Positions 1 through 19,605 of a stretch of 20,765 nt of DNA are shown here, piece by piece. Source of the DNA: a virus; IMG/VR virus record IMGVR_UViG_3300033146_000621, positions 1 to 20,765 of that record. The stretch is one strand, 5' to 3'. The stretch's first letter is position 1. Every line of letters begins with the position of its first letter. A model generated the notes under the pieces. It made no database searches. It saw only the letters and a list, made by a program, of their open reading frames with translations, and had not been told where the DNA came from. Both the position numbers and the translations under genes were made by a program.

Positions 1-3000
1 TATCAAGTTAGTACAGCCATAGAAAGCCTCTTGCAAACGGTCCATCTGTAATGAACCAAAATTCTCAAAAGATTTAACATATTCTTTAGAAGTTGTATCA
101 GTACCGTAACTGAAGGACAAACCATAAAAACTAGTACCTGTTATTTGCATCATATATTCCCCTACTGTAGCGTAAGTATGTGATATATCATCTGTGGTAA
201 AGTCTTCAATAGTACCATCTCCCCAATCTACTGTACAATCATAAGTGCCTGATTTAGTAGGTAATACTACTTCAGTATTATCTGTAGGTATATCCCATAT
301 TACTACAAATGCATTAGGGTCATAAGCAGGGGCTTCTTCCACAGGCCCATAATAAGTAGTTTTAGTCTCTTCCCCTACTAGTGTACCATCAGAAGGTGTT
401 ACAGAAAACACTATATACCTATGTAGGCTTTCGTTTGTTAGAGTATATTCTAATGTATTAGCCCCTGCAATAGGTACTAATTCCCCACCACTACTGCCAG
501 ACCTATACCATTGATAAGTTGTACCACTCTCTGGGTTATTACCATTATAAGTATAACTACCAGTTAGTAAACTATTAACTTCAAAGGCACCTGCTATCCT
601 TACATCTGCAGCATAAGGGTGAGTACCAGGCCCACACCATGTGAGAGGTACAAAATCCCAATTCTCTATATTTGTACAATCACAGAATGCACTAGAATGG
701 TGTGTAATATTAGGATTAGCCCAGAATAAGGTGTTATTCATATGTGAAGTTAAAGAGCTACAACCCAATGCAAACTCATCTATGTGTGTGACTGTATCTG
801 GAAATACCCAATGATCCGTCTTCATAGTAGTTAACGCAGTACAGTACCTAACAAAGCCGCCCATATTAGTACCCATATTGGATATATCCCAATCATCTGT
901 TATTATCTCTGTTAATGAGGAGTCTAAGCCAAATATACCACCCAGATTAACAGGGTATTCTGCTACAGTAGTATCAAACCTATTAAAGTTAGCCTTCCTT
1001 AAACCTCTGTAATCACTGAAGTTAAATTCAATATACTGACCATAATAAGTGTGTTCATGTACTAATACCCTACTATCCCATATCAACACTTCTTTTAATT
1101 TCTCTCTATCTGATGCATCAGCAGCCCATAAATCAAAACCAATAAAAGTACCTGTTATTATAACAGTATGCTCGCCTGCTGTTTCATATATGTGGTTTAT
1201 TGGCGAGTCTGTAAAGTCTTCAGGTGGGGTATCATCTCCCCAATCGATAGTACAATTATTATACGTGCTTGTACCTGTTGTAAGCTTAATATCTTCTAAT
1301 TCTGTAGTAGTCTCCCATATAGTCACCAACATTGGGGTTAAGTCTATCATTTCCCTACCCCAAAACTCTAACTCACCTATTTCAGTAATAAGTTGTGTAC
1401 CATCATTAACTGCAGTAATATGCACCCTATGATATTTGTAGTATGTATCAGAGTAGATATTAAACCTTTTAGACTCGCCTTCATTGAATATAACTTCTTC
1501 AAAGTTACCTAATACTACCCAATCTATACCATCGACTGAACCTTCAATTGTGAAGTCTTTAGGTGACCTATTACCGTATGTAAACCTACCAGCTGTAAGT
1601 ATTATAAAAGCTAACTTATGACTTGTAACAGCCTCATAAGCTAACCAATGTGGTAGTGCTGTATCAGCTGAAGCCCAAGGGAAGTTTGTTGCAGTATATA
1701 CTTTATCAAATGCTTTGTAAGCTGCATGATCTGTATTATACTCACTATCTGCTGTAGCTATACCTTCAGGTGTAGTATTGTCAGTCATATCTGGTACCCA
1801 TTGTTTATAGTACTCTTCAAAACCATAGTATTCTACAGATGCTACTTTAGTATAAGTACCTGAGTTTACTACCCTAGTTATGTTAAGCCTATAGTAGGGG
1901 GCTGACAAGGCATTATTTAAACAGTCTAGTGTAGCTAAATCATTATCATATTGTATATCTATGTAAGATTGTACTGTATACCAATTAACCCCATCATAGC
2001 TAATGTGTATCTCTACGTCTAAAGGTGCTGAGTCAGGGTCTGTTGTATCCCTTAGTATGTTAACTTTCTTTAAAGTATGAAACCTAACTGACTTATACCC
2101 TATTATAGCTGGTATAGAACTTGCACCGCTATCCCATATAGTATTACTATCTTGGTCAAATACTAAATACTGGTCTGTACCTGAACCTATTACTTCCCCT
2201 TCAGGGGTTGTATTTGAAGTCATTAAAGGTACAAACGATTCTAATTGTTTCCATACCCTTACATCGCCCATATATACTTCCTGTACAGGTAAGTCCCCAT
2301 AAGTAACATTATTAGGGTATGAATCACCTATAAAAAGTAACCCCTTATTATCCCCTATAGCAGGTGTCCATACACCCCATTTCCTATTAATCTCATCTTT
2401 TATACTATTAATTACATCGGCAGTCAAGCACCTCTCAGCACCTCCTTCCATATGAATAAAAGCATTCAAGTTAGTAGTAGCATCTAAAGCCCCCATATTA
2501 TTTCTAGCACCTGTAGTATTGTACCTTAATAAATCAGCCCAACCACCTCCGCCTGCAAGGTTGTCTATACTAATATGTGCCGTATGAGAACCAGGTAGTC
2601 CATGTTGGAGATTAAAATGTATTAACATCTTATTATTTAGAAAACCAGCGCTGTGAGAGTCAATAATATCAGTATCGTTATTATCATCATCTTTTAGTAT
2701 AAGTCTAGCAAGTACCCTATTACCATTAATTATTAAGTACAGTCTAACTGATATATTATCATAATTCCAATTACCTTCCCTCTCCCATATTAACACTTCC
2801 CCATAAGAAGCGGAGTTTAACGTAATTAACATAAAATGGTGATAACACCCTATTACATTCATACCGCCTTGGTTATACATAAAACGATCGTTCGTAACGT
2901 GTATAGCCTTAGAATTAGCATTATAAACAGGTTGTTTAGAACTAGTGGGTTGTATATAGTCATGGTTATTACCAGTTAAATCAGCCCAAGTACTTACTGG

Positions 3001-3081
3001 AGAGCCGTCAGGGGGATTGGTAGAATCCCCATTAACGTTATCCCCTTCGACTAGCCAATCTAAATTATCTATCATTGCCAT
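1..3081 (-). CDS. Giant multidomain tail-tip adhesin / receptor-binding protein (partial, C-terminus beyond window)
   Basis: The frame is open from an ATG at 3081 to base 1, giving 1027 residues with no stop; the 3' end is outside the window. ATG at 3075 (residue 3) is an alternative start. No domain search was run; domains were recognised by eye. Residues 1-240 look like a concanavalin A/LamG-type lectin domain (VSTWADLTGNNHDY near the start, INRKWG near the end). Residues about 280-422 and 427-578 are two F5/8 type C (discoidin)-like domains, each opening with a TTPEG motif. About 578-650 is PKD-like (CTIDWGDDTPPEDF), followed at 650-820 by BspA-like leucine-rich repeats (DWDISNMGTNM, YCTALTTM). 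About 820-915 is an Ig-like domain with TTYQWYRSG. A second PKD-like copy (CTIDWGDGTIEDF) then leads into another BspA start (AFYGCTNL) at the window edge. These are carbohydrate- or protein-binding surface folds, so a host-recognition role at the tail tip is inferred. It lies 11 nt after the upstream fibre gene, with no Shine-Dalgarno. Confidence 0.85.
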   Translation of the reverse strand, partial: MAMIDNLDWLVEGDNVNGDSTNPPDGSPVSTWADLTGNNHDYIQPTSSKQPVYNANSKAIHVTNDRFMYNQGGMNVIGCYHHFMLITLNSASYGEVLIWEREGNWNYDNISVRLYLIINGNRVLARLILKDDDNNDTDIIDSHSAGFLNNKMLIHFNLQHGLPGSHTAHISIDNLAGGGGWADLLRYNTTGARNNMGALDATTNLNAFIHMEGGAERCLTADVINSIKDEINRKWGVWTPAIGDNKGLLFIGDSYPNNVTYGDLPVQEVYMGDVRVWKQLESFVPLMTSNTTPEGEVIGSGTDQYLVFDQDSNTIWDSGASSIPAIIGYKSVRFHTLKKVNILRDTTDPDSAPLDVEIHISYDGVNWYTVQSYIDIQYDNDLATLDCLNNALSAPYYRLNITRVVNSGTYTKVASVEYYGFEEYYKQWVPDMTDNTTPEGIATADSEYNTDHAAYKAFDKVYTATNFPWASADTALPHWLAYEAVTSHKLAFIILTAGRFTYGNRSPKDFTIEGSVDGIDWVVLGNFEEVIFNEGESKRFNIYSDTYYKYHRVHITAVNDGTQLITEIGELEFWGREMIDLTPMLVTIWETTTELEDIKLTTGTSTYNNCTIDWGDDTPPEDFTDSPINHIYETAGEHTVIITGTFIGFDLWAADASDREKLKEVLIWDSRVLVHEHTYYGQYIEFNFSDYRGLRKANFNRFDTTVAEYPVNLGGIFGLDSSLTEIITDDWDISNMGTNMGGFVRYCTALTTMKTDHWVFPDTVTHIDEFALGCSSLTSHMNNTLFWANPNITHHSSAFCDCTNIENWDFVPLTWCGPGTHPYAADVRIAGAFEVNSLLTGSYTYNGNNPESGTTYQWYRSGSSGGELVPIAGANTLEYTLTNESLHRYIVFSVTPSDGTLVGEETKTTYYGPVEEAPAYDPNAFVVIWDIPTDNTEVVLPTKSGTYDCTVDWGDGTIEDFTTDDISHTYATVGEYMMQITGTSFYGLSFSYGTDTTSKEYVKSFENFGSLQMDRLQEAFYGCTNLI

Positions 3082-3092
3082 AGTAGTAGTTA

Positions 3093-6000
3093 TTAAATTA
3101 AAAAGTAAATAGTGTTAGGGTCTGTAGTAGGTGGTAATGCATTAACTATAGCAGTCTTAATGTTAGTTGTAGTAGAGTCAGTGGTATTAACCATAGTAGC
3201 TGGTTCATATATTAACTCATCTTCAGTAGCATTAACTACTGGTACATTACCTGCATTCCCTACTTTATCTGTAGGTGTATCTGTTAACGAATCGAATGTA
3301 CTACCACCTGTAGGTGCATCAATAAACTCTAGACCATCTTCTGCAGTGTTAACTGAAAGTAGTTTACCTGATTGACCTAAGTAGTCTGTAGGGGTATCGT
3401 GTAAACCTGTAAAGGTCTTAGCCCCTAAGTATATCATACCTACATTACAGAATTCATTAGCAAAGAAACCCCCAATATTGTTACGATAAGTAACAGGTAT
3501 AGTCCACCAAGTACTTTCATCAGTACCTTTAGCATTAACAGTAAATGATACAAACTTATTAGTATTAATATCTTTGATAATAAATACATCATCCTTATCT
3601 AAGGCTAACAGTGCGCCTGCTACAGCGTTACTGGTTAAGTCAGTTTCATTGATATACACTTCAGTAACTAAGGTATAGTTAGCATTATTTACCCTTACCC
3701 TACCTGTTGCTGGGTTACCAGTAGTATTAGTATCAAACCTATACATAGTCTCTATACTACCTACTGTGTAATCAGGTACAAATTCTACACTATTACCATC
3801 CTCGTTTACTTTAAGGCTGTACCCTTCTGACCCACTGTAATTAGTAGGTGTATCACTTAAACTTAAGAAGTCTGTAGCACCAGTAGAAGGGGCCACATTT
3901 GTACTCCTAAAGTCTTTACTAGTTATATCAACGGTTAGTATTTCATCTGTTATTGAAGTTACTAAACCCCCATGTAATACTATACCTTCATTAGTAGGGT
4001 CTGTTACTGTGTAATTAGCAGATAGTCCTATGTTTGTTTCGATAACAGTATCTACATTAGCTATCCTAAGGTAAATATCGATAGGGGAACCGTTAGCAGT
4101 CTGTGTAAAGACTAACTGGTCAAATTGAGAAGCTGTTGCACTAGTGTAATGGGTAAGTCCAAATTCATATTTAATCCCATTATAGACATGAAATAAATCA
4201 AGTTTAAATGAGGGTGCATAGAAACTACTGTCTACTACACCTGCTACACCAGCATAGGCAATATTACTAACTGTACATACCCTAAGGTAATGCCCAACTA
4301 CAAAGTCTATACCTTCTACTAACTTATCCTTACCTACTCTCCTATTATCTAATTCATCTTGTAATTCATTTATATCTGCTATTTCAGGGTTAACCCAAGC
4401 AGCATCTTTCCTCCCATAGAAAGTACTATCTTCAGGAGCTTCTGGTATACCGCCTGAGCCACTAGTATCTTCAGTCCATGAAGTAAGGTCATCATTAAGT
4501 CTATACCTCTTATCATCAGATTGTACATAAACTAGCATACCTACTTTCCTACGATCTACTGTAATAGCATCCCTTGCAGCTATATCAGCTACAGTTCTGT
4601 AACCACCTTTATTGTAGTATTCATCAGTAACGGCATATGTATCTAATTCGTCTATAGGTGCTATAAAACCAGTTAAAGGTACAGAACCAGGTATCTTAGC
4701 CCTTGGTGTTACACCTACAGCTGCTCCTTTAACCTCCATATTCAACTCACCTGAAGTCATATTAGCAGTCCTATATACATTCATGTCAACACTAACGCCC
4801 TGACTATTAGTAATATTAACTACCCTAGGTGACCAAGTAGGGTCCATTGCAACCTCTAAACCAGTTGCTGAGTCAATGATCTGAGATGCATTACCATGTT
4901 CTACAGGGTATGCTATAAACCTATAACTAGATGTACCAGCTGGTGTATTGTAAATACCATTACCATCAGTATCTAACCTACTACTACCTGCTAATATATC
5001 AGCTTCTGTAATATCCCCGTCAGTATCATTACCCCAGAAATTCCTCCACAAGTACCTTATTGAGTAATCCCTACTAAATATATCATTGTTACTATTCTCG
5101 CCCTCAATCCTAAAGGTATGAGAACCAGGGATAGTTAAATGTACATTATTAAAGGTTAATACTTCACTACCATCGTTGGCTGTATCACTAATTAAAGATG
5201 TATTACCGTCACTAACATCTATAATAGATATACTATTAGGGTTGATATTAGAGTTATTAGTAGTACCCCATACAAACTCCTTATTAGTACCATTAACTGT
5301 AGTACCTACTTCAATTATACTTGTTTGACCAGTAATGTTGAATGAATTAAAAGTAGGGTATTGATATGGGTATAATAAACCATCCCACATATTGCTGTAC
5401 CCTGCATCATCGAATGTAGTACCTACTGGGTAACCACCTAATGCTTCAGGCATTGGGGTAGTGTTAGTATATAAAGGGTTACTACCACCGCTAACTGGCT
5501 TATATGTACCATCATCTGCTAAGTAGTTATTCCCTGTACCAGTATCAGTAATTATATTAAGTGTTGATAAATTACTATGAGTATGACTATTATCTACAAC
5601 AGCCTGTATACTAACCCAAGCACTACTCTGCCTAGCATAAGTATCCCCGTCTGTAGGTGCTTCAGGTATACCACCACCAGTGCCACTATCATCAATTACC
5701 CAAGTAGTTAAATCAGGCTCTAACCTATACCTACTACTATCATCATATACAAATACTAACATACCAGCTTTACGCCTATCTTCAGTAATATTATCCCTAT
5801 CTGTAGTATTCTGTACAGTCCTATAACCGCCCCTATGGTACATTTCATCAGTTACAGCATAACTGTCAGTACTATCTATTGGGGCTATGAAACCTGTTAA
5901 TGGTACACTACCTGGTATATCCAACCTAGGGTTAGCAGTTATTGAAGCCCCTATTACCTCCATATTCAACTCGCCAGCAGTTTGATTAGAGGTCCTATAA

Positions 6001-7409
6001 ACATACATATCTACTGGCACCCCTTGCTGATTAGTTATATTAACTGTAGCAGGATTCCATGCTGGGTCCATAGCTACTTCTAAACCAGTAGCAGTATCAG
6101 TTATTTGTGTAGCTTTACCAAAGGATGCTGGGTAAGAAATAAACCTATATGATTGAGCACCTGCAGGTGTACTGTATACACCGTTACCGTTATTGTCTAA
6201 CCTATTAGAACCGTTTAGTATATCTGCCCCAGTTATTACACCGTCTACATCACTACCCCAGAAAGTACGCCATAGGTAATTAATATCATAATCCCTACTA
6301 AATGTAGCATTATTAGTGTTAATAGCACTAACCCTAAACTTCTGTGAACCTGGGCTAGTTAATGTTACATCTGTAAAACTAAGTGTCTCTATACCATCAT
6401 TTATAGAGTCTTGTAGTAAAGTAGTACCACCACTTACATCAGCAATACTGATAGTATTAGGCTGTATATTACTATTATTAGTTGTAGCCCAGTTGAATGC
6501 CCTACTAGAACCGTTAATTGTTTCCCCTACTTCTATGATTGTTTGTTGACCAGCTATACTGAAAGAACTGAATATAGGTGTTTGATAAGGGTAAAGTAAC
6601 CCATCCCACATACTATCATATTGTATATCAGTAAAAGTAGTACCTGGTTCATAACCACCAACCTGTTCTGGCATAGGTGTTGGGTTAGTATATAATACTT
6701 CCCCTGGTGTTGAAGCTCCTTTCAGTATTACCCATTCTTCAGGGCTATCGTTAGTTAGGGTCATAAACCCCCCATTACGTACTGTTTTCCCAGCTAAGTC
6801 CCCAGCTGTAAAAGTATACCCATTAGTATCATCTACACCTATTACAACCCATGAAGCACCTTTATCTACCCCTGTTATGTCAGGGTATTCATCAGCTATA
6901 GTAGGGGTAAAAGAACCAACTAAGTATATTAAGTCTATTACAGATATTGGTACTGGCTCCCAATTACCATCTTGTCTACCATACAGTACACCATCAAAGG
7001 GTGCTTCAGGTACACCGCCAAATGGCAGGTTAATTAGTACATCTATCTCTTGGTTATCAGTCGGTACATTATCGTGTATCAACCTAAATATTGGTTTACT
7101 GTTAGAATCAACCCTTATAGCATTTTCAAAGCCATTATCAGTAAATGAAGCAAATAGTAGGAAATGATAATTACCATAACCCCAGTCTTCAGTCTCAGCC
7201 CTATGTATTCTAACCTCTATAGAGTTAGGCCCTAGCTGAGTCATATCTGTATCTATAAACCCTACTTCAGGTCTCATAGACATTTGCTTAACCCTATTAC
7301 TCAAAGGGTCTACAACAATGACATAGAAATTAATTACATCATCTAAGTTTATATTCAAATAAAGGACCTGTTTAATATCAGATCCTTTGTGATATCTGTC
7401 ATATCTCAT
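3093..7409 (-). CDS. Large tail fibre / receptor-binding protein with internal tandem duplication
   Basis: 1438 residues. The N-terminal 130 residues may be the virion-attachment part (inference). Three copies of a PEAPxDGxxYGRxxxxW-like motif start near residues 134, 581 and 988; such motifs are frequent in phage fibres. A module of about 355 residues occurs twice, at about 242-598 and 649-1006. Both copies open with TPMPE...GGY...GTTF, share WDGLLYPYQ, and contain IPGSVPLTGFIAPID and GLEVAMDP. The C-terminal third has three copies of a SLxDTPTxYxGxxG...VN...LEF motif (about 1181-1212, 1333-1362, 1372-1402), another fibre-type repeat. The protein ends DPNTIYFLI, an ending seen in fibre proteins. 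No enzyme motif was recognised. The gene follows a 217-nt non-coding gap, so it may begin its own expression unit, and the giant adhesin gene starts 11 nt beyond its stop. A structural fibre role is well supported by repeats and position; ligand unknown. Confidence 0.85.
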   Translation of the reverse strand: MRYDRYHKGSDIKQVLYLNINLDDVINFYVIVVDPLSNRVKQMSMRPEVGFIDTDMTQLGPNSIEVRIHRAETEDWGYGNYHFLLFASFTDNGFENAIRVDSNSKPIFRLIHDNVPTDNQEIDVLINLPFGGVPEAPFDGVLYGRQDGNWEPVPISVIDLIYLVGSFTPTIADEYPDITGVDKGASWVVIGVDDTNGYTFTAGDLAGKTVRNGGFMTLTNDSPEEWVILKGASTPGEVLYTNPTPMPEQVGGYEPGTTFTDIQYDSMWDGLLYPYQTPIFSSFSIAGQQTIIEVGETINGSSRAFNWATTNNSNIQPNTISIADVSGGTTLLQDSINDGIETLSFTDVTLTSPGSQKFRVSAINTNNATFSRDYDINYLWRTFWGSDVDGVITGADILNGSNRLDNNGNGVYSTPAGAQSYRFISYPASFGKATQITDTATGLEVAMDPAWNPATVNITNQQGVPVDMYVYRTSNQTAGELNMEVIGASITANPRLDIPGSVPLTGFIAPIDSTDSYAVTDEMYHRGGYRTVQNTTDRDNITEDRRKAGMLVFVYDDSSRYRLEPDLTTWVIDDSGTGGGIPEAPTDGDTYARQSSAWVSIQAVVDNSHTHSNLSTLNIITDTGTGNNYLADDGTYKPVSGGSNPLYTNTTPMPEALGGYPVGTTFDDAGYSNMWDGLLYPYQYPTFNSFNITGQTSIIEVGTTVNGTNKEFVWGTTNNSNINPNSISIIDVSDGNTSLISDTANDGSEVLTFNNVHLTIPGSHTFRIEGENSNNDIFSRDYSIRYLWRNFWGNDTDGDITEADILAGSSRLDTDGNGIYNTPAGTSSYRFIAYPVEHGNASQIIDSATGLEVAMDPTWSPRVVNITNSQGVSVDMNVYRTANMTSGELNMEVKGAAVGVTPRAKIPGSVPLTGFIAPIDELDTYAVTDEYYNKGGYRTVADIAARDAITVDRRKVGMLVYVQSDDKRYRLNDDLTSWTEDTSGSGGIPEAPEDSTFYGRKDAAWVNPEIADINELQDELDNRRVGKDKLVEGIDFVVGHYLRVCTVSNIAYAGVAGVVDSSFYAPSFKLDLFHVYNGIKYEFGLTHYTSATASQFDQLVFTQTANGSPIDIYLRIANVDTVIETNIGLSANYTVTDPTNEGIVLHGGLVTSITDEILTVDITSKDFRSTNVAPSTGATDFLSLSDTPTNYSGSEGYSLKVNEDGNSVEFVPDYTVGSIETMYRFDTNTTGNPATGRVRVNNANYTLVTEVYINETDLTSNAVAGALLALDKDDVFIIKDINTNKFVSFTVNAKGTDESTWWTIPVTYRNNIGGFFANEFCNVGMIYLGAKTFTGLHDTPTDYLGQSGKLLSVNTAEDGLEFIDAPTGGSTFDSLTDTPTDKVGNAGNVPVVNATEDELIYEPATMVNTTDSTTTNIKTAIVNALPPTTDPNTIYFLI
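4392..5465 (-). repeat. Second copy of the ~355-residue fibre module
   Basis: Encodes residues about 649-1006 of the large fibre. It matches residues 242-598 (bases about 5616-6686) along its whole length, including TTNNSNI, YLW-R-FWG, TPAG, YRF, GLEVAMDP, VNITN-QGV, GELNMEV and GGYRTV. The copies are offset by about 407 residues. Divergence at many positions indicates an old duplication or selection for difference rather than a recent or assembly duplication. Confidence 0.85.
5616..6686 (-). repeat. First copy of the ~355-residue fibre module
   Basis: Encodes residues about 242-598 of the large fibre; partner of the copy at 4392-5465. Each copy is followed by a PEAP...YxR...W motif, so the duplicated unit is module plus linker. 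About 50 residues containing NSHTHSNLSTLNIITDTG separate the two copies. Confidence 0.85.
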
Positions 7410-7507
7410 AATCTATTTTGTTTTAAGTTGTATTGACTTTAGTGTCGTTACATTTGATTATTTTAACTGGTATTACTACCATAGTATAAGTACCCTTGAT
7501 GCAGGTA

Positions 7508-7613
7508 CGTAGAAGGGGTCTAGGAGGCATTTTAAGGCCTATTTAAGCCACTCTAAGGTATTTTAGGTATATGTACCCCAGAAATATAAGTTATGCCCTT
7601 AAATCGCCTTATT
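7508..7613 (-). repeat. Duplicated non-coding intergenic element, copy 1
   Basis: Lies in the 217-nt gap 7410-7626 between the 360-residue protein gene and the large fibre gene. Read on the minus strand it starts AATAAGGCGATTTAAGGGCA 13 nt after the upstream stop and ends TTCTACG. Copy 2 is at 12677-12782, 6 nt after the tape-measure stop. Shared blocks in the same order are AATAAGGC, TTTAAGG-CA, ATATACC, TTAAA-AGGC, AAAA-GCCT-CT-GA and TTCTACG. The distance from the first to the last block is 99 nt in both copies. By eye, identity is around 60% with compensating 1-nt gaps. The TTTAAGG arm can pair with a downstream CCTTAAA, hinting at RNA structure. Function unknown: a regulatory RNA, terminator/promoter cassette or processing site are all possible. 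Confidence 0.6.
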
Positions 7614-7626
7614 CTGCTTCATAAGG

Positions 7627-8709
7627 TTAATTACAGCTATTAGTAGGTTTAACCTTAAACATATATACTGCACAGTCATTAGGGCCATGAGTAGGGAGAC
7701 CAGAACCATATACATCCACAGGGGAATTACTCAAATCTACTTGAGTTAATAATTGATATGCTGAGCCTTTATAAGACCAGTAAATATCAGCTGTAGAAGC
7801 AGACCAGTATACATTACTACCATCATCTAATACTACAACTAAATTCTCTATAGACCAATCCCCATTAGTATTAACACTAACACTTGGGGGATTTAAAGCG
7901 TCCCACTCAGGTATAAATGGTTGACAACCACTCCCCATATCTTCTAACCACTCATTTGGGTTATCAAATATCAATGCTACATTATCAGTTAAAGCATACA
8001 AATCTACTGTTACTGTTGTATCCATAAATGATGGGTAGTAATTAGTACTGTTTGAAACTAACATTGGCTTTAAGGTATAGGTCATACCTAAATAGTTACC
8101 ACTACCATCTGGTGTACCATATGCTTCAGCTTCAACCCCTATACTATAGTACACATCCCCATTATTGTAACTTGCATTAGTAGAAGGTATAGTATTATCG
8201 TATGTCATACCTAAACCTGATTCAGCTGATATACCAGCATCAGTTATAGTACCTAATAAACCTTCAAAGTTTACCTCCCCTAAATGTACCTCTGAGCCCA
8301 TGTAGACATAACTACAACCTGTTATAGACTTATTATAGTAAGCTTTTAAATGCCCATCTGAAGCTAAATCCATAGGGTGTATTATAGTCTGTGGTGCATT
8401 ATGATTGTAGCAAGCAAAATCCCCTAACCTACCTAAATCTATGCTCCTAATTATGCCAGTACCATTAGCTAGCTCTAAATACCAAGAGCTAAAAGCACTA
8501 TCATTATTAACATTCATAGAGTAAGCTAACCCATAAACTTTATTAATAGTTTCGTTTAAAGCTGTACGTACATCTGTTGTAGTAATATTACTAACTTCAA
8601 CAGTTGAACCAACTACATTTATGTCCCCGACATTACTAGACCTATTAGCTATCTCTGTAGCTGTGAATGTATGGTTTAGTAAATTATATTCATCTATTAT
8701 TTTAGCCAT
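7627..8709 (-). CDS. Unrecognised tail-tip protein, 360 residues
   Basis: Not recognised. It is translationally linked to the S74 fibre gene: its ATG lies 3 nt after that gene's stop. The sequence is soluble-looking, with no signal peptide or membrane segment. It is rich in Asn, Ser, Thr, Tyr and Gly, and beta-strand-like, typical of virion appendage proteins. The N-terminal 60 residues (MAKIIDEYNLLNHTF, then VNVVGSTVEVSN-like repeats) could be an adaptor, followed by 'DVRTALNETINKVYGLAYSMN', a short helix-like stretch. Several cysteines are present (near residues 99, 132, 258, 346 and 359). Position between a fibre with an S74 chaperone and a larger fibre suggests a minor tail or host-recognition protein (inference). 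It is followed by the 217-nt gap with the duplicated element, so it probably ends an expression block. Confidence 0.75.
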   Translation of the reverse strand: MAKIIDEYNLLNHTFTATEIANRSSNVGDINVVGSTVEVSNITTTDVRTALNETINKVYGLAYSMNVNNDSAFSSWYLELANGTGIIRSIDLGRLGDFACYNHNAPQTIIHPMDLASDGHLKAYYNKSITGCSYVYMGSEVHLGEVNFEGLLGTITDAGISAESGLGMTYDNTIPSTNASYNNGDVYYSIGVEAEAYGTPDGSGNYLGMTYTLKPMLVSNSTNYYPSFMDTTVTVDLYALTDNVALIFDNPNEWLEDMGSGCQPFIPEWDALNPPSVSVNTNGDWSIENLVVVLDDGSNVYWSASTADIYWSYKGSAYQLLTQVDLSNSPVDVYGSGLPTHGPNDCAVYMFKVKPTNSCN

Positions 8710-10394: not shown

Positions 10395-12566
10395 CTAATT
10401 TGATTCGTCTTCAATTACATTAAACACATCCTTATTAACTTCCCTTAACTTAGTAGAGAATGTATTATTATAAGTACTCCATTCAGCACCATAACATTGC
10501 ATTAACCTGTCTGAAGTAAATTGTTCAGCATCTGTAAAAAGATTAAGTACAGGGTTAGCTATTGTTTTGTTATCAAATACTACATTATCTATTTCTATCC
10601 TAGGTTCATTATAATTAGATATAACTGTATTCAATACTGAATTCTCAAAGGTATAATAGACTGGGTCTAGCGAATCATCTAAAACTTTAGTATATATTCT
10701 ATCTGCATAGAAATACCCATCCCTTGGAGCTGGCCTCATAAAACTACCACGTTGTATATCATTGTTATCATAAGTGCCGTGTCTCAATTCTATTGTTTTA
10801 CCTTCTTCTTTAGCTAGCTTGTTAACGTCTGAAGTTATTACTACATCTTCTGAATCCTCTGGTTCCCCAGTTAGTAGGTTTATAATAAGGTTACATTTAA
10901 AATCTTTATACCTTATATCTAGCACTTGTGTGTCTACTGTCATTTCTTTCAATACCTCTACTGTAACCCTACCTTCTACAGTAGGTGCAGTATCGTCAGT
11001 AATATACCCTATAGGTATAAGTACACCCTTAACATACCCACCCCTAGTCCTACTAGATGGGGATAACCATGTATCAGACTTAACAGTTGTACCTGTACTA
11101 TCCCCCACTAAATCTACATTAGCTATGTATTCAAAGCTACCTATACTAACCTTCAGTTTAAGTTGGTGGTCTGCTATGTCTATGGGAGTATACCCCTCAT
11201 AACACTCTGAAATTCTAAAGTACACACTAAAGTCAACACTTAAGTAAGCATGATAGAAATCCCCATATGGTTTAGGGTCTAAAGGGTGTCCTGGTGTAGA
11301 GAGTAGGTTATTACCTAGTACATAGGGAGTATAAGCAGTTGTTTTGAAAAGAGAATCCCCTGACGTATCATTTACAAGGTTTGTAGATTTTATATACAAT
11401 TCTTCCCCTTCAGCTAGGATACCCCTAACAGAGTCTCCTTTATTCTTTTTAATAAAATAAGCACTAGTTGTATCAAGTATCTCATAGTCTATATCAAGGT
11501 CTTGGTAAAACCATTCTGACCAGAATACAGAGTCACAATCTGCAGTATTATCATATATTAGTTCAAACATATACTCAGGACAATCCTCATACCCACAGAA
11601 CTTATCCTGCTCTAATGGTATATCAAATATCTTCCCGATAGAGTACTTAGAGTAGTTTAGCTGTAAGTTATTAACAGGGTCTGTAAAAGTAAAAGATTGA
11701 CCTGTACCTGTATAGTCCATATCATACCTTATATCATATATATTTGCTATATGAGGAACTGTAGTAAAAGCAACGTAAGACCAGTCTGTGGTACTATACT
11801 CCTTTACAATCATGTCTGAGCTTTCAGCCAGTGTATTTACATCATATATGTACAAACTAGCGTCTTTAGGATTTAACCTCATCTGTAACCCTAAACTTTG
11901 TAGTATACTATTGACAGTTTCCTTAAGTGTCATTGGGTCCCCTAATTCGTCATAGTAGTTACCTTGGTGTACTAGTAGCTGGTGTAATACGGTTTCCTCC
12001 TCAATTATAGGGACTAGTGTATCATCTTTCTCTACTAACTGTTTATTAGTTACTATGTATAGAGCATTATACTCTAATTCAGTTAAAGCTAAGCACCTAG
12101 TTATTACATTATAAGCTGTATCTATACCTTCATATCTAGCAGTAGTAGTAGGGTTAATATACTTAATCCTATCTAACAAGGCTATACCGTCATTAGCTGT
12201 AAACTGTATAGGGTAATTCCTATATTCAGAATATGTTTCTTCATACATCTCTGGGTCTAACCAACCTACCCATATCAAATCATTATTAAGGTATAACTTA
12301 ATCTTATACTTCTTTAAATCAACTGTGTATAGGTCTAAGAACTGCATCTCAGTAGCACTATTCAAACTAATAGTCATACCTGAACCTATAGCCCCACTGT
12401 ACATATCTAAATCATTCAAGTTTATAATAACAGGGTCTTCAGTACCACATACCTCTGTAATACCACCTGACCAATTATCTTCAAGTAGGTCTAACCTAAA
12501 CTTCTGACCAGTTAATGGTAATCCATCTAACCCGTCATATTCTAACCTATATTTTACTTCAAACAT
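10395..12566 (-). CDS. Baseplate hub / distal tail-associated protein (putative)
   Basis: 723 residues, first gene after the tape measure, the position of the Dit/Tal (hub) proteins in siphophages. The N-terminal 150 residues are beta-rich with LIWVGWLDPEMYEE and YPIQFTANDGIALLDRIKY near 97-135, a pattern I associate with hub-like proteins of Bacteroidota phages (recalled, not searched). The middle (about 195-260) has a helical stretch, MTLKETVNSILQSLGLQMRL, then a strand pair SLYIYDV; the rest is beta-rich with no catalytic motif or coiled coil visible. No lysozyme or peptidase signature was found. The start ATG at 12566 follows a 223-nt non-coding gap that carries the duplicated element; an in-frame-independent 50-codon ORF ends 1 nt upstream. 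Role inferred mainly from position and size; it could be a Dit-Tal composite or simply a large minor tail protein. Confidence 0.75.
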   Translation of the reverse strand: MFEVKYRLEYDGLDGLPLTGQKFRLDLLEDNWSGGITEVCGTEDPVIINLNDLDMYSGAIGSGMTISLNSATEMQFLDLYTVDLKKYKIKLYLNNDLIWVGWLDPEMYEETYSEYRNYPIQFTANDGIALLDRIKYINPTTTARYEGIDTAYNVITRCLALTELEYNALYIVTNKQLVEKDDTLVPIIEEETVLHQLLVHQGNYYDELGDPMTLKETVNSILQSLGLQMRLNPKDASLYIYDVNTLAESSDMIVKEYSTTDWSYVAFTTVPHIANIYDIRYDMDYTGTGQSFTFTDPVNNLQLNYSKYSIGKIFDIPLEQDKFCGYEDCPEYMFELIYDNTADCDSVFWSEWFYQDLDIDYEILDTTSAYFIKKNKGDSVRGILAEGEELYIKSTNLVNDTSGDSLFKTTAYTPYVLGNNLLSTPGHPLDPKPYGDFYHAYLSVDFSVYFRISECYEGYTPIDIADHQLKLKVSIGSFEYIANVDLVGDSTGTTVKSDTWLSPSSRTRGGYVKGVLIPIGYITDDTAPTVEGRVTVEVLKEMTVDTQVLDIRYKDFKCNLIINLLTGEPEDSEDVVITSDVNKLAKEEGKTIELRHGTYDNNDIQRGSFMRPAPRDGYFYADRIYTKVLDDSLDPVYYTFENSVLNTVISNYNEPRIEIDNVVFDNKTIANPVLNLFTDAEQFTSDRLMQCYGAEWSTYNNTFSTKLREVNKDVFNVIEDESN

Positions 12567-12567
12567 C

Positions 12568-12720
12568 TTATATCGATTTATAAGTTAATAGCCTAAGTAT
12601 TATGGAGTATAGGCACTGTGTATCCCCTTTTCTAAGTATCATAATATTATGTTTTAATGTTAGCCTAGTGTATGCTCGTAGAATGCTCGAGAAGGCCCTT
12701 TTTAGCCTGTTTAAGGGCAT
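12568..12720 (-). CDS. Possible 50-residue ORF upstream of the hub gene (doubtful)
   Basis: An ATG at 12720 opens a 50-codon frame ending TAA at 12568-12570, leaving one base before the hub ATG. That tight stop/start spacing would suit a translated leader. The predicted peptide (starts MPLNRLKRAF) is basic and has no recognised family. It overlaps the duplicated non-coding element, and copy 1 of that element does not preserve this frame, which argues against coding. Most likely a chance ORF or short leader peptide. Confidence 0.2.
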   Translation of the reverse strand: MPLNRLKRAFSSILRAYTRLTLKHNIMILRKGDTQCLYSIILRLLTYKSI

Positions 12721-12782
12721 AACTCTATCTGAGTGGTATATACACATAGGAAATTGATTACATGGCCTTAAAAGGCCTTATT
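12677..12782 (-). repeat. Duplicated non-coding intergenic element, copy 2
   Basis: Lies in the 223-nt gap 12567-12789 between tape measure and hub. On the minus strand it starts AATAAGGCCTTTTAAGGCCA and ends TTCTACG, with the same block order and 99-nt block spacing as copy 1 (7508-7613). Here the left arm TTTAAGGCCAT can pair with ATGCCCTTAAA about 50 nt further on (one mismatch in 11). GGCCTTTTAAGGCC at its start is also self-complementary. No clear promoter of the Bacteroidota type (TTTG / TAnnTTTG) is visible on the minus strand in this gap. Terminator, processing site or regulatory RNA are possible roles. Confidence 0.6.
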
Positions 12783-12789
12783 CTAATCC

Positions 12790-15051
12790 TTATATTACTT
12801 TGTTTAGTTTACGGTCATAGTTATTAAGTACCCCAACTAAGTCTGTACCCTTTATCTTAAACTGTACTTGATCAGATGTACCTGCATTAATCATCTTAAA
12901 CAGGTTAGCTTGTTGTGCTTGATTAAGTATCATTTCCCCAGAGTTAACCCTAGCTAGTACCCTATCCCCAGTTAAGGAGCTACCACTTACTATACCACCT
13001 TCAGCATAAGTATCTGTCCTAGCCTTCTGTATCACACCTTTAAAGGTAGCTAAACCAACAGTAGCTGCAAACAATAAACCAACATAACCCTTTTTAATAG
13101 TCTCATGTGCTATCATAGCTTCGACAGCTAAGGCTAATAACTGCTGAGTTATCTGTTGCATTGTCCCTACTATCATGTCTGCAAAAGCTAGCATATCTGT
13201 ATCCCCAGTAGCAACTAGTTGAGTTATAGCTGAACTCACACCCTGTAAAGCTGTTTGAAGAGCATATGCAGCATTAGCTGAATCTGTTAGGAAAGTAACT
13301 AAATCTAACTTACTTAAGTCCTGTATCCAATTACCTGTATCTATCTTACCAGGGCCTGCTAAAGTAGTTGCAGAAGGTGTTTTGACATTAGTATACTTCT
13401 CACGTAGGTGCCCAGGAGTCATAAAGTCTAGATTCTTATACTGATTCTTTAACCAGTTTAAGTACTCTAGTTCAGCAGCTTTCCTATTCTCAATATACTT
13501 ATTATCTATCTTAAGCTTCTCTAAAGCTGTTAACTCGTTATTCCTTAACTCTACTATCCTAGCTAATTCGTAATACCTAAGTTTAAGTTTGTAAACCTTC
13601 TCAGCATTATCTTTATTCATTACTATAGAATGCCTAAGATTCTCTAACTCCTTATCTTGGGCTGCCCTATGAAATGCTATAATCTTCTCTTCCTCTATTC
13701 TATTGTACTCTAACTGGGCATTCCTTTCCCTTTCAGCATCTGCTAAAGGCTTATAAACAGCTAATAATTGTTTGTAAAGACCTATCCTAGTAATAATGTC
13801 CTTAGACTCTGGTAACATACCTAAGTAGTCTAACTGACCTTTAATAGCCTTTTCTTTTGAAATATTAGATTTAAGCCTATCCAACTCTTTAAGGAACTTA
13901 ACACTTCTCTCTAACCCTTTGACTTGACCTTCAACTTCTTTTAACTCCCTATGAAGTCTTATAGTACCTAATATTTGTTGTATCAGTATTAAGAATGCTG
14001 CTATAGGACCACCGTACCTTGCTATGACAGTTCCTAAAAATTGTAGACTTTTTCCTAATTTTAAGAATATTCCTGTAGACCCAAATATTTTATAGCTTGA
14101 TATTACCCCCTTTATAGACTTCCATAAATTTGAGAATGCAGCTATTAACCTACTACCTATAGTAGTACCTATAGCTTTAAATACAACACTTAAACCAGCT
14201 AAAGAACCTATTAATACTTTAATAGAGCCAGTACCAAATGTTAGTATCTTAAATAAACTATTGAAACTGTTAGCTAATTCCCCTATTGCTGCTACAGACT
14301 TATCAACCCCTTTATATATTACTTTATCAAATTCCCCTGATTGTAAACGTTTAGAGAATTCATCAACTTTATTCAATAAATCATCGAATATACCTGTAGC
14401 AGATATCTTCTTATATAGTAGGACTAAGAAGTCTTGCCAAGCTGTCTTTAGTCTCTGTACTTTAGTTTGAGTAGTTTCAGCTACACCACCTGCCTTCTCT
14501 AACTCCTGTGTGGCTATATTAGCTACAGCACTTGTAAAGCTATAACCGTCTGCCAACTCTTTATTTAACCTCTTTATGCTTATACCTAAGTTATCTATCC
14601 TAAGCTTAGATTGTTTAGACAAGCCTTCAACCATTGAATCAAACATATATTCAAATGATTCCCCTGTCTGTTGAGCCCTTAGTCTAACAAAATTAAGTAG
14701 TGTCCCTAACTGTTGTAGTGGTAAGTTAAAGTTATTAAACTTTACAGCAGCTTGCATTAGCTGTAATTTACTTATAGTACCATCTACTTGAGATTGTAAT
14801 GTCCTCAAATAATTGGCATCAGCAAACTGTTTAAATGCCCTCTCTACACCTTCAGTAGCAGACCCTAATTCATATACTTGTTTTACAAACTTAGTTAGCT
14901 CAGATATAGCAAAAGCTGCAGCAATATAACTGCCCAGCTTCCTAAACATGCTTTGTAACCCAGTTACATCATTCTTAACCTTTTTAATATTCTTGTTAAA
15001 CCCTGATGTATTTAAGCCCAAATGTGCCCTTATGTTGAACGATTTAGCCAT
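12790..15051 (-). CDS. Tape measure protein
   Basis: 753 residues. Tape measure proteins scaffold the tail tube and set its length. The N-terminus (FNIRAHLGLNTSGFNKNIKK, then VTGLQSMFRKLGSYIAAAFA) is typical of the family. Long helical and coiled-coil stretches follow, with Lys/Glu/Leu-rich helices at about 370-550. Hydrophobic segments appear near residues 270-300, 345-365 and 635-665, as expected for a protein later inserted in the host envelope. The C-terminus has the family motif AEGGIVSGSSLTGDRVLARV followed by NSGEMILNQAQQANLF. At about 0.15 nm per residue the tail would be roughly 110 nm (rule of thumb, inference). Its ATG overlaps the upstream chaperone stop by 8 nt, which suggests translational coupling. 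A 223-nt non-coding gap follows. Confidence 0.93.
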   Translation of the reverse strand: MAKSFNIRAHLGLNTSGFNKNIKKVKNDVTGLQSMFRKLGSYIAAAFAISELTKFVKQVYELGSATEGVERAFKQFADANYLRTLQSQVDGTISKLQLMQAAVKFNNFNLPLQQLGTLLNFVRLRAQQTGESFEYMFDSMVEGLSKQSKLRIDNLGISIKRLNKELADGYSFTSAVANIATQELEKAGGVAETTQTKVQRLKTAWQDFLVLLYKKISATGIFDDLLNKVDEFSKRLQSGEFDKVIYKGVDKSVAAIGELANSFNSLFKILTFGTGSIKVLIGSLAGLSVVFKAIGTTIGSRLIAAFSNLWKSIKGVISSYKIFGSTGIFLKLGKSLQFLGTVIARYGGPIAAFLILIQQILGTIRLHRELKEVEGQVKGLERSVKFLKELDRLKSNISKEKAIKGQLDYLGMLPESKDIITRIGLYKQLLAVYKPLADAERERNAQLEYNRIEEEKIIAFHRAAQDKELENLRHSIVMNKDNAEKVYKLKLRYYELARIVELRNNELTALEKLKIDNKYIENRKAAELEYLNWLKNQYKNLDFMTPGHLREKYTNVKTPSATTLAGPGKIDTGNWIQDLSKLDLVTFLTDSANAAYALQTALQGVSSAITQLVATGDTDMLAFADMIVGTMQQITQQLLALAVEAMIAHETIKKGYVGLLFAATVGLATFKGVIQKARTDTYAEGGIVSGSSLTGDRVLARVNSGEMILNQAQQANLFKMINAGTSDQVQFKIKGTDLVGVLNNYDRKLNKVI

Positions 15052-18265: not shown

Positions 18266-18292
18266 AGCAATAGTTATTAATTAGTTTAATAA

Positions 18293-18320
18293 CACCAGGC
18301 CCATTGATACAGACCCAGTG
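18293..18320 (-). terminator. Hairpin downstream of the capsid gene (possible attenuator)
   Basis: CACTGGGTC and GGCCTGGTG flank a 10-nt loop on the minus strand and can pair over 9 positions, three of them G-U. It lies about 18 nt after the TAA that ends the capsid's -1-frame tail. No U run follows, so it is at best a weak terminator; a stabilising 3' hairpin for the capsid message is as likely. Confidence 0.4.
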
Positions 18321-18337
18321 CTATAAACAAGTTAGTA

Positions 18338-18508
18338 TTAAGGTAAAAGATCAGGTGTCTTAACAAAAGCCTGTGGGTTAGTAACCTTAACGTCAGCAAT
18401 TTTATTTACTGTGATTACCACTTTACCATCAGCAGCCTGAGTATACTTATCTACTATAATCTCTACTTGACCGTAGTCAGCGATAAAGATTTTTGTAGGG
18501 TCTCCGTA
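18338..18508 (-). CDS. C-terminal end of the major capsid protein in the -1 frame
   Basis: 56 codons in the -1 frame relative to the capsid gene, beginning YGDPTKIFIADYGQVEIIVD and ending at TAA 18338-18340. A GD-x-xK-x-x-IAD segment near the C-terminus is typical of HK97-fold capsids, whereas the capsid frame itself ends in the unconvincing TETLQKSLSLTTVK. Deleting two bases of the TATATA run (18507-18512) would fuse the frames as SMLYGDPTK and give a 421-residue protein. So this is the missing end of the capsid protein, reached by a frameshift, or separated by an indel or sequencing error. Confidence 0.8.
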   Translation of the reverse strand, partial: YGDPTKIFIADYGQVEIIVDKYTQAADGKVVITVNKIADVKVTNPQAFVKTPDLLP

Positions 18509-19605
18509 TATAACATACTGTATAAGTTAGAATACCAGAAAGGTACACCATCATAAGTAAAGCCTGCTTCAGCTGAACTAGCCCCTAATCTTTCAACTAA
18601 GAAACGACCAGAACCAGAGTCAATAGCTACACCTTTAGCTTCAAAGAAAGTAGGTCTAGAAGCAAAGAAAGCTCCATCAACTTCTACCTCAGCTCCAGCC
18701 ATAAGGGCATCAAAACCAGCTTTAGAAATGTCAGTACCAGCTACAACGGAAGCATATCCTAGAGCTTTAGTATAAACCTCTTTAGTAATACCTCTATCAG
18801 CAGCTTTAACCATATCAGCCAATACTGATTGTAAAAACTCATCTGTAGCAGAATTTAAAGTTTCAAGTGTAAATGCTTTTTGAACACTAAATCTATGTGG
18901 CTGTACTAGGATTCCATCAGGAGTAGTAGTGTCGCCAGTTAAAGTAGCAAGCTCAGCGATGAGGTCAGCTACCATAGGTGATTCATAAGGCAGTGTAAAT
19001 GTACCTTTAGCACCACTAAGTACTTTTGCATTCATTTGAGTATATAAAGGCTCATATCCTAATATGTCTAAAGCCTCTACATAATTTGGGATTGCATTAG
19101 TCATTGCTCCTGTATCGCCATCGATTGGAGCTCTTTGTGCTAGAACAGCACTTCTATTATCTGTATCAATTCTCTCTCGAATTGCTTCAATTAATTTATT
19201 TTCCATTTTTACTTTTATATTAATATTAATATTATCGTCAAGCGAACGTTTATTATGCTCAACGTTAGTATCTTCAAGCTTATCTTCAAGCTCTTCTTTT
19301 TTAGTTTCTTCTTCTGTCTTGTCAGAGTTTTCCTCATTAGTAGGGATATTCTTAGGCTCTTCAGCTTCTGGTTTCTCCTCCTCTGTTGGGGTTTCCTCTT
19401 CCGCAGGAATATCTTTAGTCTCCTCTAATTCCTCAGTAAGCTTATCCTTCTCAACTTTAAGTTCTTCAACTTTCTTTGTCTCTTCTTCTGTAAGTTCTCT
19501 TTCAGCTTTGATGGCACCTTCAAGTATGGAATTAAATTCCTCCTCAATGGCTCGGATAGATTGTGAATTTACTTCACTTTCTTGTGTTTTGTTCTTCTTT
19601 TCCAT
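18463..19605 (-). CDS. Major capsid protein, HK97 fold, with N-terminal delta (scaffold) domain; 3' end frame-broken
   Basis: 380 residues as read; about 421 if joined to the -1-frame tail at 18338-18508. Residues 1-115 are an extreme Glu/Lys-rich helical domain (TEEETKKVEELKVEKDKL), interpreted as the delta scaffold removed by the prohead protease. The capsid core begins around MENKLIEAIRERIDTD (Met134) and contains VEALDILGYEPLY, FTLPYES, PHRFSVQKAFTLETL and FLVERLGASSAEAGFTYDG, all HK97-type capsid patterns. The likely processing point is between residues 115 and 135 (inference). The gene overlaps the protease gene by 32 nt. The reading frame leaves homology at about codon 366, at a TATATA run. 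Confidence 0.9.
   Translation of the reverse strand: MEKKNKTQESEVNSQSIRAIEEEFNSILEGAIKAERELTEEETKKVEELKVEKDKLTEELEETKDIPAEEETPTEEEKPEAEEPKNIPTNEENSDKTEEETKKEELEDKLEDTNVEHNKRSLDDNININIKVKMENKLIEAIRERIDTDNRSAVLAQRAPIDGDTGAMTNAIPNYVEALDILGYEPLYTQMNAKVLSGAKGTFTLPYESPMVADLIAELATLTGDTTTPDGILVQPHRFSVQKAFTLETLNSATDEFLQSVLADMVKAADRGITKEVYTKALGYASVVAGTDISKAGFDALMAGAEVEVDGAFFASRPTFFEAKGVAIDSGSGRFLVERLGASSAEAGFTYDGVPFWYSNLYSMLYTETLQKSLSLTTVK

Follow-up and report, generated by a model that had tools for sequence, protein, structure and literature searches.

The same non-coding element of approximately 106 nt occupies both of the large gaps in the tail operon of a 20,765-base linear virus record, the whole of which we analyzed (hereafter, the window), and several phages carry members of this class, which is small and as yet has no name. 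The element is repeated, has a quasi-palindromic anatomy, is positioned just past stop codons, recurs in other phages, and is constrained in one orthologous pair. We tentatively favor, at slightly less than an even chance, the explanation that it is a dispersed, stoperator-like cis-regulatory site that is read by its sequence and placed at transcription-segment boundaries. To our knowledge, little is established on how Bacteroidota phages partition their long operons into segments with separate expression. With a recognizable boundary sequence, the regulons of uncultivated phages would be easier to map and the regulator easier to find, and, if our reading is true, the dispersed punctuation known from mycobacteriophages would also occur in a very different phage–host group.

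The repeated element and its anatomy

The window is that of a siphophage, and the host is most probably a member of the Bacteroidota. Its late genes lie on the minus strand and comprise those for a head protease, the capsid, connector and tail completion proteins, the major tail protein, and the tape-measure protein, together with tail-tip genes. The tape-measure protein is similar to counterparts in Porphyromonas and Cellulophaga phages, the tail-tip protein is similar to counterparts in Bacteroides phages, and Shine–Dalgarno-like sequences were found for none of the 19 window ORFs of at least 100 amino acids. Close relatives of this phage were absent from the collections searched with tail-tip, capsid, or large-protein queries, and we identified no recombinase genes in the window and no regulator gene in this 20.8-kb fragment. 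The capsid ORF (18463–19605, minus strand) stops early, and the usual HK97-type C-terminus (YGDPTKIFIADYGQVEIIVDKYTQ...TPDLLP) resumes in another frame (window positions 18340–18540) near a TATATA run; the frame break reflects an assembly error or a mutation, a programmed frameshift being less likely. The large protein (3093–7409, minus strand) has an internal duplication (residues 1–500 against residues 579–908, 53% match) and a Fibritin_C-like match near residue 1000, and the last protein (1–3081, minus strand), which contains F5/8 type C (discoidin) and PKD domains, is a probable sugar-binding virion protein.

On the minus strand, copy 1 of the element (7508–7613) starts 13 nt past the stop codon of an unknown tail gene (7627–8709) and ends approximately 98 nt before the gene encoding the large protein, and copy 2 (12677–12782) starts 7 nt past the stop codon of the tape-measure gene (12790–15051) and ends approximately 110 nt before a tail-tip gene (10395–12566). 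The gaps that contain them measure 217 and 223 nt, respectively. A preliminary description of this DNA had reported one shared element in both gaps, composed of the ordered minus-strand blocks AATAAGGC, TTTAAGGnCA, ATATACC, TTAAAnAGGC, GCCT, and TTCTACG, and this account is borne out: the order is identical in both gaps, AATAAGGC starts at 7613 and 12782 and TTCTACG at 7514 and 12683 for a first-to-last spacing of 99 nt in both, and the real gaps align better than every shuffled sequence. Ungapped, the two copies are identical at 58 of 106 positions (mean of 29.5 and maximum of 46 in 5000 shuffles), an identity of only about 55–60%. The gapped local score of the two gaps is 69 (maximum of 53 among 2000 dinucleotide shuffles), and the element alone scores 60 against a shuffle maximum of 36. 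The parts of the gaps downstream of the element (7410–7500 and 12567–12667) align at chance level (score of 23 vs a mean of 23.9), and the minus-strand leaders that follow copy 1 (7410–7507) and copy 2 (12567–12676) are unlike each other. Because the similarity is limited to the element and the downstream parts are at chance level, we conclude that this is a discrete element and not a duplicated gap. A 21-base gapped pattern derived from the blocks matched only the two copies in the window, with zero matches expected.

The statement that these are the only two gaps longer than 200 nt also holds for non-coding gaps. A 197-nt interval (18266–18462) was considered as the location of a third copy and rejected because most of it encodes capsid sequence in another frame. 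Likewise, no ORF accounts for the element, in agreement with the earlier claim that coding features do not explain it; the sole minus-strand ORF of at least 50 amino acids within gap 2 (59 amino acids) has no counterpart in gap 1, and the coding reading was rejected.

The element is a quasi-palindrome in which inverted arms of tandem 10–11-nt units (AAGGCnnTTTAAGG in the left arm and TTAAAnAGGC in the right arm) flank an AT-rich near-palindromic center (GGTACATATACC and GTATATAC in the two copies). Copy 1 is composed of the left arm AATAAGGCGATTTAAGGGCAT (7593–7613), which contains two inverted tandem units, the near-palindromic center GGGGTACATATACC (7566–7579), the right arm GGCTTAAATAGGCCTTAAAATGCCT (7525–7549), which also contains tandem units, and the end block TTCTACG (7508–7514), all on the minus strand. 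The corresponding minus-strand parts of copy 2 are the left arm AATAAGGCCTTTTAAGGCCAT (12762–12782), the center GTGTATATACC (12735–12745), which includes the palindrome GTATATAC, the right arm ATGCCCTTAAACAGGCTAAAAAGGGCCTT (12692–12720), and the end block TTCTACG (12677–12683). Copy 1 scores 62 against the reverse complement of copy 2 and 60 against copy 2 directly, and a profile of the two copies matches both on the opposite strand as well (E-values of 2e-5 and 8e-5); this match of each copy to the reverse complement of the other identifies the element as quasi-palindromic. Self-complementarity inside one copy is modest (p of 0.14 and 0.02). Aligned to copy 1, the inner ~55 nt of copy 2 scores 41 when inverted and 19 in direct orientation (null of 8.9, SD of 5.1), and the outer blocks match without inversion. 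The inverted-fitting cores (12720–12774 and 7550–7603, minus strand) thus lie between direct flanks and are a possible trace of inversion or template switching; decay from a symmetric ancestor, template switching at the quasi-palindrome, or a true inversion could each produce the mismatch in core orientation.

Recurrence and constraint in other phages

A gapped pattern built from the two window copies, which imposes similarity on the contigs it fetches, matched six stretches in a viral collection, two of them coding and four intergenic. The reversed pattern gave zero matches in the same collection, although the presence of CG dinucleotides in the reversed pattern makes this control somewhat generous. 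To assess similarity outside the imposed pattern, we held the pattern fixed and shuffled the remaining bases. In this comparison, the sequences from contigs L120 and L115 are significantly similar to both window copies and to each other, and that from L116 is similar to L115 and weakly to copy 1; L119 was dropped, with nothing similar outside the imposed pattern. The matches in L117 and L118 fall within coding sequence, and first-pattern matches in L003 and L004, which by our estimate are about as many as chance would give, were left out. A second search with a profile of the two window copies, L120, and L115 found sites that had not been used for fetching (L141:947–1032, L135:4419–4504, and L135:7622–7733), the last of which has an ortholog at L134:3406–3512. 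The architecture of the element is present in L115, L120, and the group formed by L133, L134, L135, and L141, and weakly in L116, with two to three sites per contig in L134, L135, and L141.

The full-length sites all lie at most 25 nt past a stop codon, on the same strand as that gene and with a same-strand gene downstream. The gene ahead of the element encodes the terminase small subunit (terS) in L135 and L141, a TreK-like protein, also in L135, and unknown proteins in L115 and L120. The L133/L134/L135/L141 group additionally has partial sites in an operator-like place, the divergent region next to terS. That region (L133:4600–4950, L134:700–1100, L135:5330–5780, and L141:60–330) also contains the conserved sequence TTTTATATCAGAATATTGGGGGGCACAAGGGG, a possible cos or packaging site. 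The preliminary description proposed that the element might punctuate the expression of host-recognition genes. The positions are best read as pointing to a role at gene boundaries; however, the specific link to host recognition looks incidental because the element also follows terS, the TreK-like gene, and unknown early genes.

The terminase of L135 is nearest to those of phages of Bacteroides and Parabacteroides. L115 and L116 lack Shine–Dalgarno-like sequences, whereas the L120 phage has them in 14 of 18 ORFs, so the class may extend beyond one host group. Recurrence of the element is divided: it is absent from approximately 100 distant tape-measure relatives, the best of which share only 35–47% identity in the best-matching part of the protein, but it recurs in contigs that belong to other phages. 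The distance from the tape-measure gene to the next gene has a median of 1 nt in the 84 relatives with a readable junction and exceeds 100 nt in only 4 of them, with a maximum of 203 nt compared with 223 nt in the window. Given that this junction is normally tight, we regard the 223-nt gap as an addition. In two of the four long-gap relatives (L112 and L043), the junction contains a hairpin that resembles a terminator and is accompanied by a T run, indicating that some relatives divide transcription there. The repeated or palindromic gaps of relatives L019, L017, L006, and L043 were rejected as candidates, being other sequences that resemble promoters of inserted genes or ordinary terminators. 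One contig with a Bacteroidota-type tape-measure gene (L107) comes from a MAG labelled Candidatus Paceibacterota and is possibly a misbinned phage contig.

The element pattern is present in 0 of 296 Bacteroidota genomes, and a sequence-only model gave only chance-level matches (best of 22 bits); on these grounds a host chromosomal repeat was rejected. The L141 copy matched 0 of 395 genomes, a weak result in a search that had no positive control. We found nothing in the literature that describes the sequence of the element.

Comparison of orthologous sites provides some evidence for constraint. In the L135/L141 pair, identity is 94.4% in the element, 91.0% at the 3′ end of terS, and 78.3%, with an 11-nt indel, in the DNA from the element to the next gene, which supports purifying selection on the element. 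Between L134 and L135, identity is 83.9% in the element and 89.5% in the preceding gene, and this pair is neutral with respect to purifying selection. Across copies, the blocks are kept at fixed spacing while the spacers have diverged. We consider it possible, with low confidence, that the element represents an undescribed class of compound cis-regulatory sites, common to unrelated phages (mostly of Bacteroidota), that divides operons after stop codons and is read by a putative sequence-specific regulator.

Proposed sequence recognition and the alternatives

The preliminary description also suggested a structured RNA, and this part is unsupported: the fold energies in the window are ordinary, there is neither a consensus fold nor an Rfam match at gathering score, and the arms pair about as well across copies as within them. 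A related explanation is that the element forms a hairpin in the mRNA where the upstream gene ends and serves either as a factor-assisted terminator or as an RNase processing or stability signal that adjusts the relative amounts of the tail proteins. The sense-strand position directly after stop codons would suit an RNA signal equally well, both window copies can form one long imperfect hairpin, the L120 and L115 elements fold well (z-scores of about −3.7), terminator-like hairpins follow the tape-measure gene in L112 and L043, and the intergenic stem-loops of the cip-cel operon provide a precedent (PMC10311766). However, the z-scores are about −1.5 for both window copies and −0.3 to −1.7 for four other members, RNAalifold returned zero consensus pairs in eight sequences, and arm pairing within a copy is only marginally above that of swapped arms (p of 0.04 and 0.09), with cross-copy arm duplexes in the window slightly stronger than those within a copy. 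Rfam gave nothing at gathering score and a permissive search just one 12.5-bit chance match; on this result, the modest folds, and the lack of clear covariation, we rejected assignment to an RNA family. Terminator prediction gave no intrinsic terminator (GC-rich stem and U run) on the gene strand of the two gaps and a single weak one on the opposite strand of copy 2, and the conservation includes the non-pairing blocks AGAATA and TTCTACG. As judged by sequence comparison, the kept feature appears to be a set of sequence blocks at fixed spacing and not pairing. We view the mRNA hairpin as the main alternative, credible but less probable than the stoperator-like site.

It is unlikely that the element is a functionless fossil or byproduct, whether the remnant of an old insertion or duplication or the outcome of tandem repeats arising through slippage in AT-rich intergenic DNA. 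The low identity of the window copies, the lack of the element in tape-measure relatives, and the occurrence of ten-nt tandem GGCTTAAANA repeats in unrelated phages, including Campylobacter phage CPt10, are consistent with such an origin, but the fixed block spacing between diverged spacers, the constraint in the L135/L141 pair, the extension of L120 and L115 similarity past the tandem repeats, and the regular position after stop codons argue against it. A separate GGCTTAAANAGGCTTAAA pattern yielded 17 matches, mostly intergenic, which were not accepted as members; this pattern consists of a 10-nt repeat in tandem, and for the simple cases slippage may be explanation enough. CPt10 contains four 10-nt GGCTTAAACA repeats directly past a stop codon (L145:1495–1534; record positions 125861–125894), and 10–11-nt versions of these repeats are found in the L120 phage (L125:8340–8370). 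More improbable still is a recombination or mobile site, in which case the element would be a small mobile unit bounded by inverted ends, contain an invertible core, or mark an exchange boundary for the three tail-tip genes bracketed by the two copies. The inverted ends of the quasi-palindrome and the better inverted fit of the copy 2 core between direct flanks would agree with these possibilities; against them, near-identical copies are absent, the window encodes no recombinase, the GC content is even across the three-gene block, elsewhere the element brackets no module, and for inversion by site-specific recombination, a core of ~55 nt is short. A miniature mobile element was likewise rejected, since inspection found no target-site duplication and the copies are so divergent.

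We therefore return to the stoperator-like site as the best explanation, and note that its members are few and were initially fetched with the pattern of the window copies. Inverted arms with tandem units one helical turn apart would be typical of sites for multimeric DNA-binding proteins. Each copy is a compound site consisting of two inverted arms of tandem 10–11-bp units (approximately one helical turn) around a near-palindromic AT-rich center, and it lies just past the stop codon that ends one gene and 50–120 nt or so ahead of the next. In the mechanism we propose, a phage or host protein would recognize the sequence of this site, and binding would lower read-through from upstream and/or govern new initiation ahead of the downstream gene. 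Against this reading, the Bacteroidota −7 promoter element TAnnTTTG is absent from the minus strand of 7410–7626 and 12567–12789.

Comparison with known systems

No known family fits the element. Integron attC sites are similar in being imperfect palindromes of similar length located just past a stop codon. In attC, the palindrome is bounded by the core sites RYYYAAC and GTTRRRY; by inspection, the element instead ends in AGAATAAGGC and TTCTACG, and the window contains no integron integrase, so this assignment was rejected. The intergenic repeats of the tailed halovirus HF2 (PMC8707807) likewise lie ahead of genes, but they are 58 and 29 bp in length and are archaeal promoters with reporter evidence, whereas our element has a longer inverted anatomy and no recognized promoter motif. 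The cip-cel stem-loops are located between genes of one operon, as is the element, and could similarly set subunit ratios; they are, however, RNA cleavage or stability signals with tested stems (PMC10311766), and pairing does not appear to be the conserved feature of the element. These two systems can serve as models for the promoter and RNA-processing alternatives, respectively.

The stoperators/operators of Cluster A mycobacteriophages (L5, TipsytheTRex) are non-coding sites dispersed among promoter regions and short intergenic spaces, where they are oriented with transcription (PMC9283540). Like those of L5, the element is present in several copies per genome (two in the window, and more than one in L134, L135, and L141), in short intergenic spaces and in the operator-like divergent region beside terS, and every full-length site follows a stop codon in sense orientation, although the independent cases are few and the core of copy 2 is inverted relative to copy 1. 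Unlike the element, a compound quasi-palindrome of ~100 bp with few copies, L5 stoperators are single asymmetric 13-mers that number more than 20 per genome; the host group also differs, and the reader protein of the element is putative. By analogy, we posit that the sites may divide transcription as the mycobacteriophage stoperators/operators do. Among known systems, L5 stoperators appear to be the best match in layout, in the sense that the element may work like them and not that it is a member of their family.
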